From IMG/VR virus record IMGVR_UViG_3300027996_000094, positions 1 to 35,417 of that record: a stretch of 35,417 bases of DNA; one strand, given 5' to 3'. The first letter of the stretch is position 1, and each line of letters starts with the position of its first letter. Of the stretch, positions 12,952 through 20,039 are shown one piece after another. The notes beneath the pieces are model-generated. The model did not search any database and was not told the origin of the DNA. It saw only the letters and a list, made by a program, of their open reading frames with translations. Origin of the DNA: a virus. Position numbers and translations under genes: made by a program.

Positions 12952-13818
12952 GTGCCAAGTCCAAAAAAAATTTCGGATATCAAGAATACCATATCTAGAG
13001 TTGCTCAAACATCTCACTATGAGGTAATGCTTGGTGGATTTTCATCCAAACTCAGGAGCAATTTTAGTGATTATTCAATTTATAAAAATTTTATTGCAAG
13101 AGATCTTGGGCTATTGTGCTATGATGCAACTCTCCCTGGTTCATCGCTTGCGACAACTCAGATTGAAGGAAACTTCACTGGTGTTCAGCAACAGTATGCA
13201 CATACAAGAATATTCAATAATATAACTCTAGGTTTCTATTGTGATTCTGATTACAATGTTCTAAAGTTTTTTGAATCCTGGATTGATTTTATTAGTGATG
13301 GTGGAACAGCAGATAAAAGAAATAAAGGATATTTTTATAGGATGAGATATCCAGATCAATATAAATGTGAGGGAATAAGAATCTCAAAGTTTGATCGAGA
13401 TTTTAGGAATGGTGTTCAATATAATTTGGTTTCTGCATTTCCAGTATCAATTAGCGGAACACCAGTTTCATATGAGGCATCAAATTCAATCTTAAGAATC
13501 AGTGTTGATTTTAACTTTGATCGTTATATCATGACCAGTCTTGGTAGTTCTGGTGGATCTGGTGGATATGCAAATGCAACATCTGCACCAACACTTTCTG
13601 ATCTATTTGATTTCAGCAATACTTTTAGTAGTAACAAAAATAATGGAGGATTCCAATATAATTCTTCATTGGAAGGATATTTCTCATCATCAAATTCCAA
13701 TAATACAAATCAACTCAATCAGGCATTATTGGATAACTGGATAAACTCCAAGTCACTAAGTTGGGATCCAAGTGCGGCTGCCTCATCTGATCAGTTGAAT
13801 TTTGTCTCAGCATCATAA
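12952..13818 (+). CDS. 54: Baseplate tail tube initiator gp54
   Basis: It uses a GTG start (PSPKKISDIKNTISRVAQTSHYEV), and the 288-residue protein has the tube-like pattern typical of gp54: LPGSSLATTQIEGNFTGVQQQYAHTRIF and GFYCDSDYNVLKFFESWIDFI. gp54 sits on gp48 and templates the first ring of tail tube protein. The C-terminal 80 residues are Ser/Asn/Gly-rich and low-complexity. The gene diverges from gene 4 and opens the long plus-strand tail cluster. Confidence 0.9.
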   Translation: MPSPKKISDIKNTISRVAQTSHYEVMLGGFSSKLRSNFSDYSIYKNFIARDLGLLCYDATLPGSSLATTQIEGNFTGVQQQYAHTRIFNNITLGFYCDSDYNVLKFFESWIDFISDGGTADKRNKGYFYRMRYPDQYKCEGIRISKFDRDFRNGVQYNLVSAFPVSISGTPVSYEASNSILRISVDFNFDRYIMTSLGSSGGSGGYANATSAPTLSDLFDFSNTFSSNKNNGGFQYNSSLEGYFSSSNSNNTNQLNQALLDNWINSKSLSWDPSAAASSDQLNFVSAS

Positions 13819-13845: not shown

Positions 13846-14562
13846 ATGCCTTTACCTAAGTCTACGACTCCTGTATATGAACTTGAGTTGCCTTCAATCA
13901 AGAAAACAGTTAAGTATCGTCCTTTCCTCGTTAGAGAAGAGAAAGTCCTCATCATGGCACTGGAAAGTGAGGATATGAAGCAGATTAGTGAGGCTGTCAA
14001 AAATGTCCTATCTGCATGTATCATGAGCAGAGGTATTAAGGTTGATACTCTATCAACATTTGATATTGAGTATCTATTTTTGAATGTTCGTGGCAAGTCT
14101 GTCGGAGAACTGATTGATGTTGTTGTCACTTGTCCAGATGATGGGGAAACAAAAGTAGAAACACAAATCAATATTGATGATATTCAAGTAAAATTTGACG
14201 AGGATCATTCTAGGGATATTAAATTGGACAATGACCTCACTCTCAGGATGAAGTATCCAGCACTTAGCGAGTTTGTGAAAACAAATTTCAATGGTGAAGA
14301 TATTGGTGTTGATCAGGGGTTTGAAATCATTTCAAACTGTATTGATCAAGTTTATAATGAGGAAGAATCTTGGAGCGCATCTGATTGTACCAAGAAAGAA
14401 CTCAGTGAGTTTGTTGGCAACTTGACATCTTCTCAGTTCAGTAAGATTGAGAAGTTCTTTACTACGATGCCAAAATTGAGTCATACATTGAAGGTGAAGA
14501 ATCCTAAGACTGATGTTGAAAATGAAATTGTTCTTGAGGGTCTGGCATCTTTTTTCGGATAG
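13846..14562 (+). CDS. 26: Baseplate hub assembly protein gp26 (PF12322-like)
   Basis: A 238-residue protein starting MPLPKSTTPVYELELPSIKKTVKYRPFLVREEKVLIMALES, the hallmark of the T4 gp26 baseplate family. It acts in hub assembly and is positioned where tail assembly chaperones occur in other phages. The last codons read TCT TTT TTC GGA TAG and contain the -1 slippery heptamer T TTT TTC. A conserved start-less frame continues beyond in the -1 phase. Hence two products are likely: 238 residues, and about 299 residues after frameshifting. Confidence 0.9.
   Translation: MPLPKSTTPVYELELPSIKKTVKYRPFLVREEKVLIMALESEDMKQISEAVKNVLSACIMSRGIKVDTLSTFDIEYLFLNVRGKSVGELIDVVVTCPDDGETKVETQINIDDIQVKFDEDHSRDIKLDNDLTLRMKYPALSEFVKTNFNGEDIGVDQGFEIISNCIDQVYNEEESWSASDCTKKELSEFVGNLTSSQFSKIEKFFTTMPKLSHTLKVKNPKTDVENEIVLEGLASFFG
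14550..14556 (+). promoter_or_regulatory. Predicted -1 ribosomal frameshift site T TTT TTC
   Basis: The heptamer matches X-XXY-YYZ in the gp26 reading phase and is followed by one codon and the gp26 stop. Slippage leads into the open frame at 14556-14744. An imperfect hairpin (ATGAGTC/GACTTCAT, 14572-14589) follows 15 bases downstream. Confidence 0.75.
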
Positions 14563-14744
14563 CCCTGGCACATGAGTCTCTGACTTCATACTATCAAACT
14601 AATTTTGCCTTAGTTCAGCACCATAAATATAGTTTGACGGAGTTAGAAGATATGATGCCATGGGAAAGAGAAGTATACGTTTCTCTTCTCCAAGCATATC
14701 TAGAGGAAGAAGAATTAAAACGTAAACAAGCAAATGGCATCTAA
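14556..14744 (+). CDS. gp51-like short frame, probably made as a gp26 frameshift extension
   Basis: The frame encodes about 62 residues (LAHESLTSYYQTNFALVQHHKYSLTELEDMMPWEREVYVSLL, given here as two adjacent blocks: LAHESLTSYYQTNFAL and VQHHKYSLTELEDMMPWERE). From memory, cyanophage genomes label this short protein gp51. No ATG, GTG or TTG occurs between the preceding in-frame stop (14535-14537) and the conserved block, so normal initiation would lose that block. The helical L-T-E-L-x-x-M-x-x-x-E-R-E-x-Y pattern resembles C-terminal extensions of tail assembly chaperones. It overlaps the tape-measure candidate by 11 bases. Confidence 0.75.
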   Translation, partial: RIALAHESLTSYYQTNFALVQHHKYSLTELEDMMPWEREVYVSLLQAYLEEEELKRKQANGI

Positions 14745-16434
14745 GATAACAATCGACACATCCAAACTTTTACCTGCTGTAGGCCAAACCTCAGCAGGTC
14801 GTGGTGGTGCAATTGTTAAATCAACTGGTGGTGGGATTGTAAGAAGTTTAGGGCAATCATTTTCTGGTGCTGTACAAGAAATAACTAATGTTAGAGAGAA
14901 GCAGCAGCAACAAACATTCACGTTTCTCTCTAGACAATTACAGGCAATCAATAATAATATCTTAGCCGTTGCGAATAATATTACGGCACTCACAAGTGCA
15001 TTGCAGGCGGATACAAGACAAGAAGAAGCAAATATACAACAAACAAGAGTTCAAAGAATTAAATCTGCGGAGAAAGAATCTTTTGGTCGTGCTGAGAATA
15101 TTCTAGAGAGTAGAATTGTTAGGGCAATAACAAAACCAGTCAAGAAAATTACTGGTGCCGTTCAGGGTGGATTGAATAAACTTAAAAATGCACTCATGCT
15201 TCTTTTTGTTGGATGGTTGGGTGATAAAATATTTAAAATGTTCCAGGCAGATGCCGAGGGAAATGAAAAAGAATTTGAGAATCTAAGGAATCAAGTTGTT
15301 ATTGCTCTAGCAGCTGCTGGCGGAGCATTTTTAGCATTAAATGGTGGATTGCTTGGAATAATGAAAACTATTGGTGGAATAGCAGCTTCTGTTGCTGGAT
15401 TTCTACTCAAAAAACCATTCCAATGGTTAAAGAATTTATTTTTCCCGGCTAGAAGACCTCCAGTAACTGGTGGCGGTAAAGGTGGTCGTGTTCCCCCTGT
15501 CACTGGTGGCGGTGGTACTGGTGGTGGTCGTGTTCCCCCTGTCACTGGAGGTGGTCGTACTGGTGGTGGAACTACATCACCACCTCAAACTAGAGGTGGG
15601 TTGGGTGGAATTTATGATAGGTTCAAAGGTGGTCTTGGTAGAATGGTCCCAGGTCCAATCAAAAATAATGCGCCAAAACTGAAGAACTTATTTGCAAGAC
15701 CAAAAAATGCAGTTGTCGGTCTTGGAAAAGGACTACTTCCATTTTTGGGCAAAGTTTTAGGTGCAGCTACTTTTGTGCTTGGTGCAAGAGATAGAATAAA
15801 TCGTGGTCAAAGTCCAACACAAGCAGTTCTTGGATATTTGCCAGAATTCTTATTAACTTATGGTGGTGCAAAAATAGGATTAGGAGCAGGAGCTCTTGCT
15901 GGTGGTGGAATTTTGAGTGTATTATTAGCTATTGCTGGTGCTGGTCTTGGTGGTATGGTTGGTGGAATGTTAGGTCAACCAATCACTAATCTTATTGATA
16001 GTAATTGGAATCCAGAATGGGACAAAGCACTTGGTTTTATTAATGATCCCATTAGTAAATTCTTAGGAGATAAGGGATTGATTGAAAAAGCGGGAGCATC
16101 TACTTCAGAAACTACACCTACGGCAAAGGAATCTACTGCTCCTGGTAATGGGTCTGCAGTAAATCCAATACCAGATCCTAAATCTCCAACTGCATCTGCC
16201 GTAACACCATTATCAACAACAGAACCACGCGCAAGAGATTTAGCCGGGAGAGGCCCTGCAGAAGGTCAACCAACGTTTATTGATTTGACTGGTGGAATGT
16301 ATAATAATGATAAGCAGAAGAAAAGACAAATTTACCCAAGTACTACTGGAAAGAATGTTCCTCATATTCCAACTTCTGATCCTGCTAATCCGTTTAGAGA
16401 TTTTGCAAAGTCGATCTACAATGTTGCGGTGTAA
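14734..16434 (+). CDS. Tail hub / tape-measure candidate, 566 aa
   Basis: The product has a coiled-coil, Gln-rich N-terminal third (to about 130) and a hydrophobic block NALMLLFVGWLGDKI (about 152-166). Further hydrophobic segments at 185-225 are followed by a Gly/Pro linker with three PPVTGGG repeats (242-275) and a Gly-rich hydrophobic region (about 380-425). It resembles cyanophage tail structural proteins. Its length is near T4 gp29 (590, the tape measure), and it directly follows the gp26/gp51-like chaperone pair, as tape-measure genes do. The assignment is by position and architecture, not by identity. It shares the GWL block with the next gene. Confidence 0.6.
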   Translation: MASKITIDTSKLLPAVGQTSAGRGGAIVKSTGGGIVRSLGQSFSGAVQEITNVREKQQQQTFTFLSRQLQAINNNILAVANNITALTSALQADTRQEEANIQQTRVQRIKSAEKESFGRAENILESRIVRAITKPVKKITGAVQGGLNKLKNALMLLFVGWLGDKIFKMFQADAEGNEKEFENLRNQVVIALAAAGGAFLALNGGLLGIMKTIGGIAASVAGFLLKKPFQWLKNLFFPARRPPVTGGGKGGRVPPVTGGGGTGGGRVPPVTGGGRTGGGTTSPPQTRGGLGGIYDRFKGGLGRMVPGPIKNNAPKLKNLFARPKNAVVGLGKGLLPFLGKVLGAATFVLGARDRINRGQSPTQAVLGYLPEFLLTYGGAKIGLGAGALAGGGILSVLLAIAGAGLGGMVGGMLGQPITNLIDSNWNPEWDKALGFINDPISKFLGDKGLIEKAGASTSETTPTAKESTAPGNGSAVNPIPDPKSPTASAVTPLSTTEPRARDLAGRGPAEGQPTFIDLTGGMYNNDKQKKRQIYPSTTGKNVPHIPTSDPANPFRDFAKSIYNVAV

Positions 16435-16437
16435 GAA

Positions 16438-18537
16438 ATGGCAGAAATTAACACACCAGTACTAAGAAACGTATTCAAAAGATCCAGTATAGATGAGCAG
16501 ATTTTATCTCTGAGAAAAAATTCTATATTTGCAAGAAAGTCATCAATAAATGCAAGAAAGGTATTTGCAAGAAAGACTTTAGTTTCTGCTAAAGCTCAAC
16601 AAACAGAAAAGAGAATAAACTTTTTATTTGAAACTAAGAATCGAAGAAGAAGGAGAGAAGAATTAATAGAAGCAAATTCCACAAAGTCTGGATATATTAG
16701 TGGCGCAGTAAAAAATGCTCTAAGTCGAGGTAAAGGATTCATGGGTAAAATCATGGATTCCTTAGGATTTCTCTTACTTGGTTGGTTGGTCAATCAATTA
16801 CCAAGAATTCTAGCGTTCATCGATACTCTGAAGTTTCGTATTACCAATATCATTGATGCTGGTAAGAGTATGATTAGAAATATTGGTAATATAATTAATG
16901 GGATCGGTGGTGTCGTAAGTCAGGCGACACAAAACATTATGGATTTTAATTTCAAAGATTTTAATGATCCCAATGGAGAGTTTCAATCAAAGATTAAAGA
17001 GTTAGATAAAAATCTTCAAGATCTTGGTAATGATTTTGAAGATGCAAAGGTAAATGTATTAAATATTACAAATCCACCCACTGAAGAAGAAAGGAAACAA
17101 AAGGAAGAACAACCTGGAAAAGCTACTAGACCAGAAGAATCAAAAGAATATTATGGTCCTGGTGGTAGTCCATCAGGTTCTGGGCAAGGGCAAGCACAAC
17201 AACGACCTGAAACACAAATAACTCCAACACCATCTGCATCTGGCACTCCAGGTGCTGGACAAACCAAAGAAATGCGAGCATTGTTGAATGTAATTGCATA
17301 TGCTGAGGGTACGTCTGGAGAACCAAATTATGGGTATAATACTCATTATGCATATGATCAAACTGCAGACTTAAGTGCTCACCCAAATATTATTAAACGT
17401 GGTGGTGGACGCAATAGTGCGGCATTTGGTCGTTATCAGTTCATGCCTAGAACATGGATTGGTATTGGTGGTGCATGTAAAGCTGGTGGACCTATCCCAT
17501 ATACACCTGGAATGAGTATGTCTCCTGCAAATCAGGATAAGGGTGCCATTATACTTGCAAAAAGACGAGGAGTAACTCAGGCATTACTGCAAAAAGAAGG
17601 ATTTAGTATGAATGTATCCGCCAGATTGTCTGGTGAATGGGCATCAATTCCTAATGCTCAGGGGCAAAGTGCATATGGGCAACCAGTTAGAAAATATAAT
17701 CAATTAAAAGCCCTCTACGAAAAAGAGGTTGGAAAACCAAAACCACAGGTGCAAGCACCACCACCAAAACCTGCTCCAGCGCCACCAGTTCAACCCAAAC
17801 CACAACAGCAATCTCAAACTACTGCACCATCTAGTTTGATGCCAGTGTCTGGAACCACTGGTAGCGCACAAGCACCTCAAGGTAAAGGATCTAGAGTAAG
17901 TATGGCAACTTCTCCTTTTAGAAGAGGTAGTGGTGCAGTTATTACTTCTGGGATGGGTGAACGATGGGGCCGGATGCACAAGGGTGTTGATATTGGTGCC
18001 AATCGTGGAACTCCTTTACATTCATATCTTCCTGGAAAAATATATCAAACTGGAAAGTTAGGTGCAGCAAATGATGGTGGATATGGAAATTGGGTGTCAT
18101 GGAAGGATGATAAGTTTAATGCATATCATTTCTTTGGGCATATGAATACTCAATCTCCTTTAGGTCCAGGAAGAAAATTTAATGCAGGGGCCATGTTAGG
18201 AACTGTCGGTGGTTCTGGAGATGGAAATCCAAATAAATTTAAAGATCATCTTCATTGGGAGATTTCAAAAAATCAACCCGATGCAATGGGCAACTTTAAA
18301 CCACCCACTGATCCAATTACTTGGATCAATAATAATATGGTTCAAGGAGTTGCTGCTGCTCCAAAATCAACTGTAACTCAGAGTAGAGCAAAAGGAACGA
18401 CTATTGCAATGGTTCCAGTTCCCATTGAAACTGAAGTGCAGGTCCCAGTATCATCTGGTGGTGGGACAGGATTCAGTAAATCTAGTGGCACAGATCCATT
18501 AAATAGTATTAGAAATATCACTACAATGTACACATAA
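16438..18537 (+). CDS. Tail-associated lysin with GH104-like and M23 peptidase domains, 699 aa
   Basis: The N-terminus is basic and helical, with a hydrophobic SLGFLLLGWLVNQL block (109-122) paralogous to the upstream gene. Residues about 278-435 resemble the lambda endolysin/GH104 fold: AYAEGT with probable catalytic Glu290, GYNT, FGRYQFMPRTW, and EWASIPNA...YGQ. A Pro/Gln linker (about 436-475) follows. Residues about 495-625 form an M23 metallopeptidase with zinc ligands His514, Asp518 and His606 (HKGVD, HLHWE). It would cut both glycan and peptide bonds of peptidoglycan at the tail tip during DNA entry. It probably replaces the lysozyme domain of T4 gp5. Confidence 0.85.
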   Translation: MAEINTPVLRNVFKRSSIDEQILSLRKNSIFARKSSINARKVFARKTLVSAKAQQTEKRINFLFETKNRRRRREELIEANSTKSGYISGAVKNALSRGKGFMGKIMDSLGFLLLGWLVNQLPRILAFIDTLKFRITNIIDAGKSMIRNIGNIINGIGGVVSQATQNIMDFNFKDFNDPNGEFQSKIKELDKNLQDLGNDFEDAKVNVLNITNPPTEEERKQKEEQPGKATRPEESKEYYGPGGSPSGSGQGQAQQRPETQITPTPSASGTPGAGQTKEMRALLNVIAYAEGTSGEPNYGYNTHYAYDQTADLSAHPNIIKRGGGRNSAAFGRYQFMPRTWIGIGGACKAGGPIPYTPGMSMSPANQDKGAIILAKRRGVTQALLQKEGFSMNVSARLSGEWASIPNAQGQSAYGQPVRKYNQLKALYEKEVGKPKPQVQAPPPKPAPAPPVQPKPQQQSQTTAPSSLMPVSGTTGSAQAPQGKGSRVSMATSPFRRGSGAVITSGMGERWGRMHKGVDIGANRGTPLHSYLPGKIYQTGKLGAANDGGYGNWVSWKDDKFNAYHFFGHMNTQSPLGPGRKFNAGAMLGTVGGSGDGNPNKFKDHLHWEISKNQPDAMGNFKPPTDPITWINNNMVQGVAAAPKSTVTQSRAKGTTIAMVPVPIETEVQVPVSSGGGTGFSKSSGTDPLNSIRNITTMYT

Positions 18538-19811: not shown

Positions 19812-20039
19812 ATGGACTCCATCGAAACTCACATTGCAAAGGACAAAGAAATCCTTGACAATCCTTTGACTTCTCCAAATCAACGTCGTCATATTGAATC
19901 TGAACTTCATGATTTGGAAGATTATGCAGAAAATCATAAGTCGGATATTGAAGCCGGAGATCATCATGATCCCACACCTCTTGAGCTCTATTGTGATACC
20001 AATCCAGAAGCAGATGAGTGTAGGATATATGAAGACTAA
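19812..20039 (+). CDS. cp12: CP12-like Calvin cycle inhibitor
   Basis: CP12 is an intrinsically disordered protein that, when its Cys pair is oxidised, binds GAPDH and phosphoribulokinase and shuts the Calvin cycle. The 75-residue product ends LELYCDTNPEADECRIYED: Cys61 and Cys70 with the Pro/Ala loop between them and the terminal Y-x-D, matching the GAPDH-binding C-terminus. The N-terminal Cys pair and AWD-VEEL motif of plant CP12 are missing. Known cyanophage CP12s share this short form (from memory). With talC it favours the pentose phosphate route. It is embedded between two baseplate genes, so expression is probably late. Confidence 0.9.
   Translation: MDSIETHIAKDKEILDNPLTSPNQRRHIESELHDLEDYAENHKSDIEAGDHHDPTPLELYCDTNPEADECRIYED

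Follow-up and report, generated by a model that had tools for sequence, protein, structure and literature searches.

A probable -1 ribosomal frameshift that would make gp26 and gp51 one tail assembly chaperone gene in a T4-like phage

The gp26 gene of the window (the whole 35,417-nt stretch of DNA analysed here, from a virus of marine cyanobacteria) and the gp51-like frame that overlaps its end are, with high probability, one tail assembly chaperone gene with two decodings, the second of which would be reached by -1 ribosomal frameshifting. Slippage of the ribosome at a run of six Ts would very probably yield a second, longer tail assembly helper. The initial annotation had put forward gp26 and gp26-51 as such a chaperone pair, and the proposal gains support from the conservation of the slippery heptamer, selection on the tail, its lack of a usable start, a non-random RNA fold, a predicted chaperone fold and the T4-type phages, which serve as a natural control.

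In the mechanism that we envisage, the majority of ribosomes would terminate at 14562 and release a short form of 238 residues. A minority would slip back by one base on T TTT TTC, with tRNA-Phe re-pairing from UUU UUC to UUU UUU, aided by a folded mRNA that begins 6 nt downstream. After the slip, reading of the -1 frame to 14744 would give a long form of 299 residues as a minor product. If lambda gpG/gpGT is a guide, the tape measure would be coated by the short and the long form alike, and the tail domain of the latter would recruit tail-tube subunits. We infer the slip, its rate and these roles in assembly from lambda and P2.

Reading frames and predicted chaperone fold

The protein-coding features and the proposed slip site are as follows.

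12952..13818, + strand: tail-tube-family protein, directly upstream of gp26 (PHROG 45, E 5.6e-40; Pfam Phage_TTP_2, E 2.8e-21)
13846..14562, + strand: gp26-like protein, predicted short tail assembly chaperone (TAC-N), 238 aa in the 0 frame (Pfam, PHROG and AlphaFold2 model)
14550..14556, + strand: putative -1 slippery heptamer T TTT TTC, in phase, one codon ahead of the 0-frame stop
14556..14744, + strand: gp51-like tail in the -1 frame, 62 aa after the slip plus the stop codon, C-terminal part of the predicted 299-aa TAC-NC (PHROG 634)
14560..14562, + strand: 0-frame stop TAG, which terminates the short form, as read from the sequence
14734..16434, + strand: 566-aa protein, tape-measure candidate (PHROG 167 tape measure, a weak match at E 5.6e-7)

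The last codons of gp26 are TCT TTT TTC GGA TAG, which place T TTT TTC in the phase that a tandem -1 slip requires. The -1 frame is open over 14538-14744 and holds no ATG, GTG or TTG ahead of its conserved block; its earliest start candidates, TTG at 14634 and ATG at 14652 and 14655, all lie within or past that block. A slip would join 237 residues to 62, a product of 299 as computed from the frames. The heptamer with its position and phase, the open, start-less frame and the size of the fused protein of about 299 residues had all been noted in the initial annotation, and all check out. One such heptamer near a gene end is just mildly unusual by chance, the window containing 56 in-phase X XXY YYZ sites per 10,380 codons, five of which are T6, and alone it is weak evidence.

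Profile searches placed gp26 in Pfam T4_baseplate (PF12322; E 4.8e-74, 249 bits against a cut-off of 24.5) and in PHROG 150 (E 1.2e-79). The -1 tail hit PHROG 634, a family labelled "baseplate hub assembly catalyst", at E 9.9e-30; it matched the C-terminal portion of PHROG 150 too. By these matches to PF12322 and PHROG 150/634, gp26 and the tail belong to the T4 gp26/gp51 protein family. NCBIfam yielded no family for gp26 or gp51, and a sequence search of the PDB returned no relative of gp26 and none of the 566-aa protein.

The AlphaFold2 model of gp26 (pLDDT 88.7) has a TAC fold over residues 1-96. Comparison of the model with the PDB by VIA-align gave 3fgx (Z 8.0), the HK97 tail assembly chaperone 2ob9 (Z 7.4) and YqbN, 3klu (Z 7.1), as the leading matches, scores of Z 7-8 being moderate and reachable by unrelated models, although one of the leaders is a named tail assembly chaperone. 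The matches span about 85 residues and the next rows fall to Z 4.8 and 2.5. We take 3fgx and YqbN to be chaperone-type phage proteins as well, a description absent from their entry titles. Foldseek alone found no significant match to the gp26 model. The predicted structure thus supports, without proving, a tail-assembly-chaperone fold in gp26.

Conservation of the slippery site and of the -1 frame

Viral contigs and annotated phages supplied 271 gp26 loci, which formed 123 clusters at 90% protein identity and whose hosts include Synechococcus, Prochlorococcus, Pelagibacter, Vibrio, Aeromonas, Stenotrophomonas, Rhizobium and Sinorhizobium. Alignment of the gp26/gp51 junctions, a check that the initial annotation had proposed, showed an in-phase T TTT TTN in 115 of the 117 clusters in which one strand carries both gp26 and the tail, clusters that are related to each other and so do not count as independent. 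The last base of the heptamer is C in 101 clusters, T in nine, G in three and A in two, and the 0-frame stop typically follows one codon past it. The first Phe codon of the heptamer is TTT in 115/115, compared with 65% TTT at other gp26 positions; since the search pattern demanded six Ts, 115/117 is the fairer figure. It is this conservation that marks the heptamer as non-random. The tail itself behaves as a conserved coding sequence under purifying selection, because substitutions in the window clade, counted in the -1 frame, are distributed 28/22/134 over codon positions 1, 2 and 3.

The canonical slippery heptamer is missing from L092, L284-L301 (Ackermannviridae) and L276 (Vibrio phage K413). 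In these loci, conservation of the tail in the -1 frame nevertheless runs through the gp26-like stop, and in several of them the -1 frame opens only 10 nt ahead of that stop. The Ackermannviridae loci instead conserve GAR ATT TTC ATY TAA.

The start-less tail and the T run, a typical site of indel errors, could in principle reflect a sequencing error or a fused gene in decay. However, the same break occurs at the same codon in more than 100 lineages, from isolates and metagenomes alike, and is followed by a tail under purifying selection. Conservation therefore refutes this reading, which we regard as next to impossible.

A different reading treats gp51 as an independent gene, translated from an internal start or by termination-reinitiation after the gp26 stop. 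Such is its annotation in most genome records, with gp51 as a separate entry in GenBank and RefSeq, and an early ATG, within the first 12 tail codons, is present in 60/115 clusters, mostly at -1 codon 5 or 6 from the heptamer. Against this, ATG, GTG and TTG are all absent from the first 12 tail codons in 46/115 clusters, the window clade included, so that the absence of a gp51 start, anticipated for relatives in the initial annotation, holds for these clusters and fails for the others, which have a start codon, the early ATG in 60 of them. Even there, 50 of the 60 have no Shine-Dalgarno-like match upstream of the ATG, and in most ATG-bearing relatives the codon, their sole ATG candidate for gp51, is buried within the 11-bp hairpin described below. 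An independent gp51 also leaves the fixed heptamer unexplained, and T4 gp51 is itself an in-frame fusion with a gp26 domain. We consider an independent gp51 very improbable, and favour frameshifting from gp26.

Predicted RNA structure downstream of the heptamer

Three further features flank the proposed slip site.

14537..14541, + strand: GAGGG, 8 nt ahead of the heptamer, which might act as an internal Shine-Dalgarno-like stimulator (suggestive)
14557..14562, + strand: 6-nt spacer between the heptamer and the RNA structure, taken from the fold
14563..14664, + strand: predicted stimulatory RNA structure of 102 nt, with a base stem of CCCUGGCACAUG (14563-14574) paired with UAUGAUGCCAUGGG (14651-14664) and nested stems

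The 124 nt past the heptamer fold at -32.5 kcal/mol, with z -2.6 relative to dinucleotide shuffles and z -3.7 relative to synonymous shuffles. Almost every cell in the alignment of 11 window-clade loci preserves the base stem (14563-14574 with 14651-14664); its changes are one-sided only and none is compensatory. An imperfect hairpin at 14572-14589, named in the initial annotation, can be drawn, but the 44-nt region around it reaches -5.2 kcal/mol against a shuffle mean of -6.0 (z +0.37) and hence folds no better than shuffles; we rejected it in favour of the stronger 102-nt structure.

Over 113 clusters the synonymous-shuffle z of the RNA past the heptamer averaged -1.84. When the test was slid along the sequence, mean z was -1.95 at this position and between -0.41 and -1.09 elsewhere. 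Related cyanophages have an 11-bp hairpin that begins 5 nt past the heptamer and pairs alignment columns 13-23 with 33-43. Among 42 gap-free clusters having ATG at alignment columns 16-18, at least 10 of the 11 pairs form in 29, and paired cells amount to 82.9%, as against 29-47% in slid versions of the hairpin. Covariation is seen at column pair 21-35, which is altered on both sides in 10 sequences. Because the ATG forms part of the stem, its presence there suggests a structural role and not initiation. RNAalifold found no common structure over all 83 gap-free clusters, since the lineages use different folds, for which a clade-wise analysis is needed.

The structure also bears on whether the long form might arise by slippage of RNA polymerase on the T run and not by slippage of the ribosome. 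The run comprises six Ts, and seven or eight in some lineages (HTVC008M), a point in favour of such slippage. Six bases, however, is short for transcriptional slippage; the run is fixed in one codon phase and usually broken by C, and a downstream mRNA structure would have no role in that process. We hold polymerase slippage to be extremely improbable and retain a slip of the ribosome as the source of the long form.

As for a signal upstream of the heptamer, the Glu codon at GAGGG is GAG in 61 and GAA in 28 cases, compared with 828 GAG to 1719 GAA across the rest of gp26. Shine-Dalgarno-like matches total 92, with 88.4 expected, and so show no excess. A stimulatory role for GAGGG, put forward on codon usage, is suggestive only.

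T4-type phages, known chaperone frameshifts and the tape-measure candidate

T4 gp26 and gp51, known as baseplate hub assembly proteins, fall in the same protein families as the products described here. In T4-type phages the two genes lie on opposite strands, and in T2 gp51 a T4_baseplate domain (residues 1-201, E 4.3e-55) precedes the same tail, which is the layout predicted for the frameshift product. Because T2 gp51 joins this domain to the tail, T4 gp26 and gp51 can be recognised by sequence as related to the short and the long form, with a separate gene for each. Most T4-type members retain a Phe-Phe motif at the end of gp26, spelled TTC TTT, and no slippery site is present at the gp26 ends of the four complete T4-type genomes. 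Thus the two forms come from two opposite-strand genes without a slippery site in T4-type phages, whereas here a single gene would supply both.

Of 19 complete genomes, 15 show the same-strand layout, each with one gp26 domain and a -1 tail; the other four are T4-type and have two gp26 domains. A second full-length gene combining gp26 with the tail did not turn up here; the window, a 35-kb fragment, contains a single match, and so does the complete genome of the nearest known relative, Synechococcus phage S-T4 (Kyanoviridae; 81.5% identity over 83% of a 3.5-kb query). On balance we favour a history in which the T TTT TTN -1 frameshift is ancestral to the T4-like superfamily outside the T4-type group. 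It would have been tuned by a downstream mRNA structure that lineages replaced (the 11-bp hairpin in many cyanophages, the 102-nt long-range stem in the window clade) and lost in T4-type phages when duplication gave separate gp26 and gp51 genes.

Chaperone frameshifts are classical in tailed phages, and the lineage-specific RNA structures are the least-known part of the present case. Lambda gpG/gpGT and P2 E/E' likewise consist of a short form and a form extended by -1 frameshifting, encoded between the tail-tube and tape-measure genes; here the downstream tape measure is a candidate. The present site differs in its poly-T heptamer, which is not that of lambda, in the larger short form (238 aa) and in the structured mRNA after the site. 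A comparable case is Pseudomonas phage Adele (Vandenendeviridae; PMC12846349), in which a conserved poly-T slip motif likewise lies near the end of TAC-N and the downstream ORF is also routinely annotated as a gene of its own, although the motif is GTTTTT and the phage family is different.

A 2016 recoding review described the G-T type frameshift as widely conserved in long-tailed phages except T4 (PMC5009743). The initial annotation had regarded the frameshift as undescribed for T4-like cyanophages, which probably does not hold in view of later papers. PRFect (PMC10885494) cites Vladimirov et al. 2022 (Vladimirov, Gautam and Davidson, Virology 566:9-15) for some T4-like phages with a short gene and a fused long gene, and the Adele paper (PMC12846349) refers to it for poly-T frameshift signals in the TAC-N genes of T4-like phages. 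Going by these citations, the frameshift has probably been described already for T4-like phages. Vladimirov et al. 2022 aside, the literature searched contained no description of a gp26/gp51 frameshift in cyanophages, and the joined gp26-51 product is annotated in none of the genome records examined.

"gp51" in many marine T4-like phages is therefore probably the end of a frameshift product and not a gene of its own, in which case hundreds of genome records may be misannotated. The frameshift would also link the puzzling hub proteins gp26 and gp51 of T4 to the classical tail assembly chaperones, and allows frameshifting and gene duplication to be compared as routes to a short and a long form. 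The tail is annotated inconsistently: in S-T4 (L280, 4632-4766) it is cut to 45 codons with an internal start, and the records of S-CAM8 and ACG-2014i (L081, L082) omit it.

Between the ATG of the 566-aa ORF and the gp51 stop there is an 11-nt overlap (14734-14744), which might couple translation of the tape measure to frameshifting; overlaps of this ATG with the gp51 stop are common in relatives (44/103). The initial annotation named the 566-residue protein as the tape measure. Its position and the weak PHROG 167 match make this plausible, but the profile of its family gave no significant match to T2 gp29, and the protein stays a candidate. Since the 699-aa ORF at 16438-18537, which has endolysin-type and M23 peptidase domains, weakly matches the 566-aa family profile, the two ORFs may have an N-terminal segment in common, and the tape measure could be one or the other. 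Further downstream, within the tail gene module, lies a gene for the carbon-metabolism regulator CP12 (19812-20039; Pfam E 1.9e-12).
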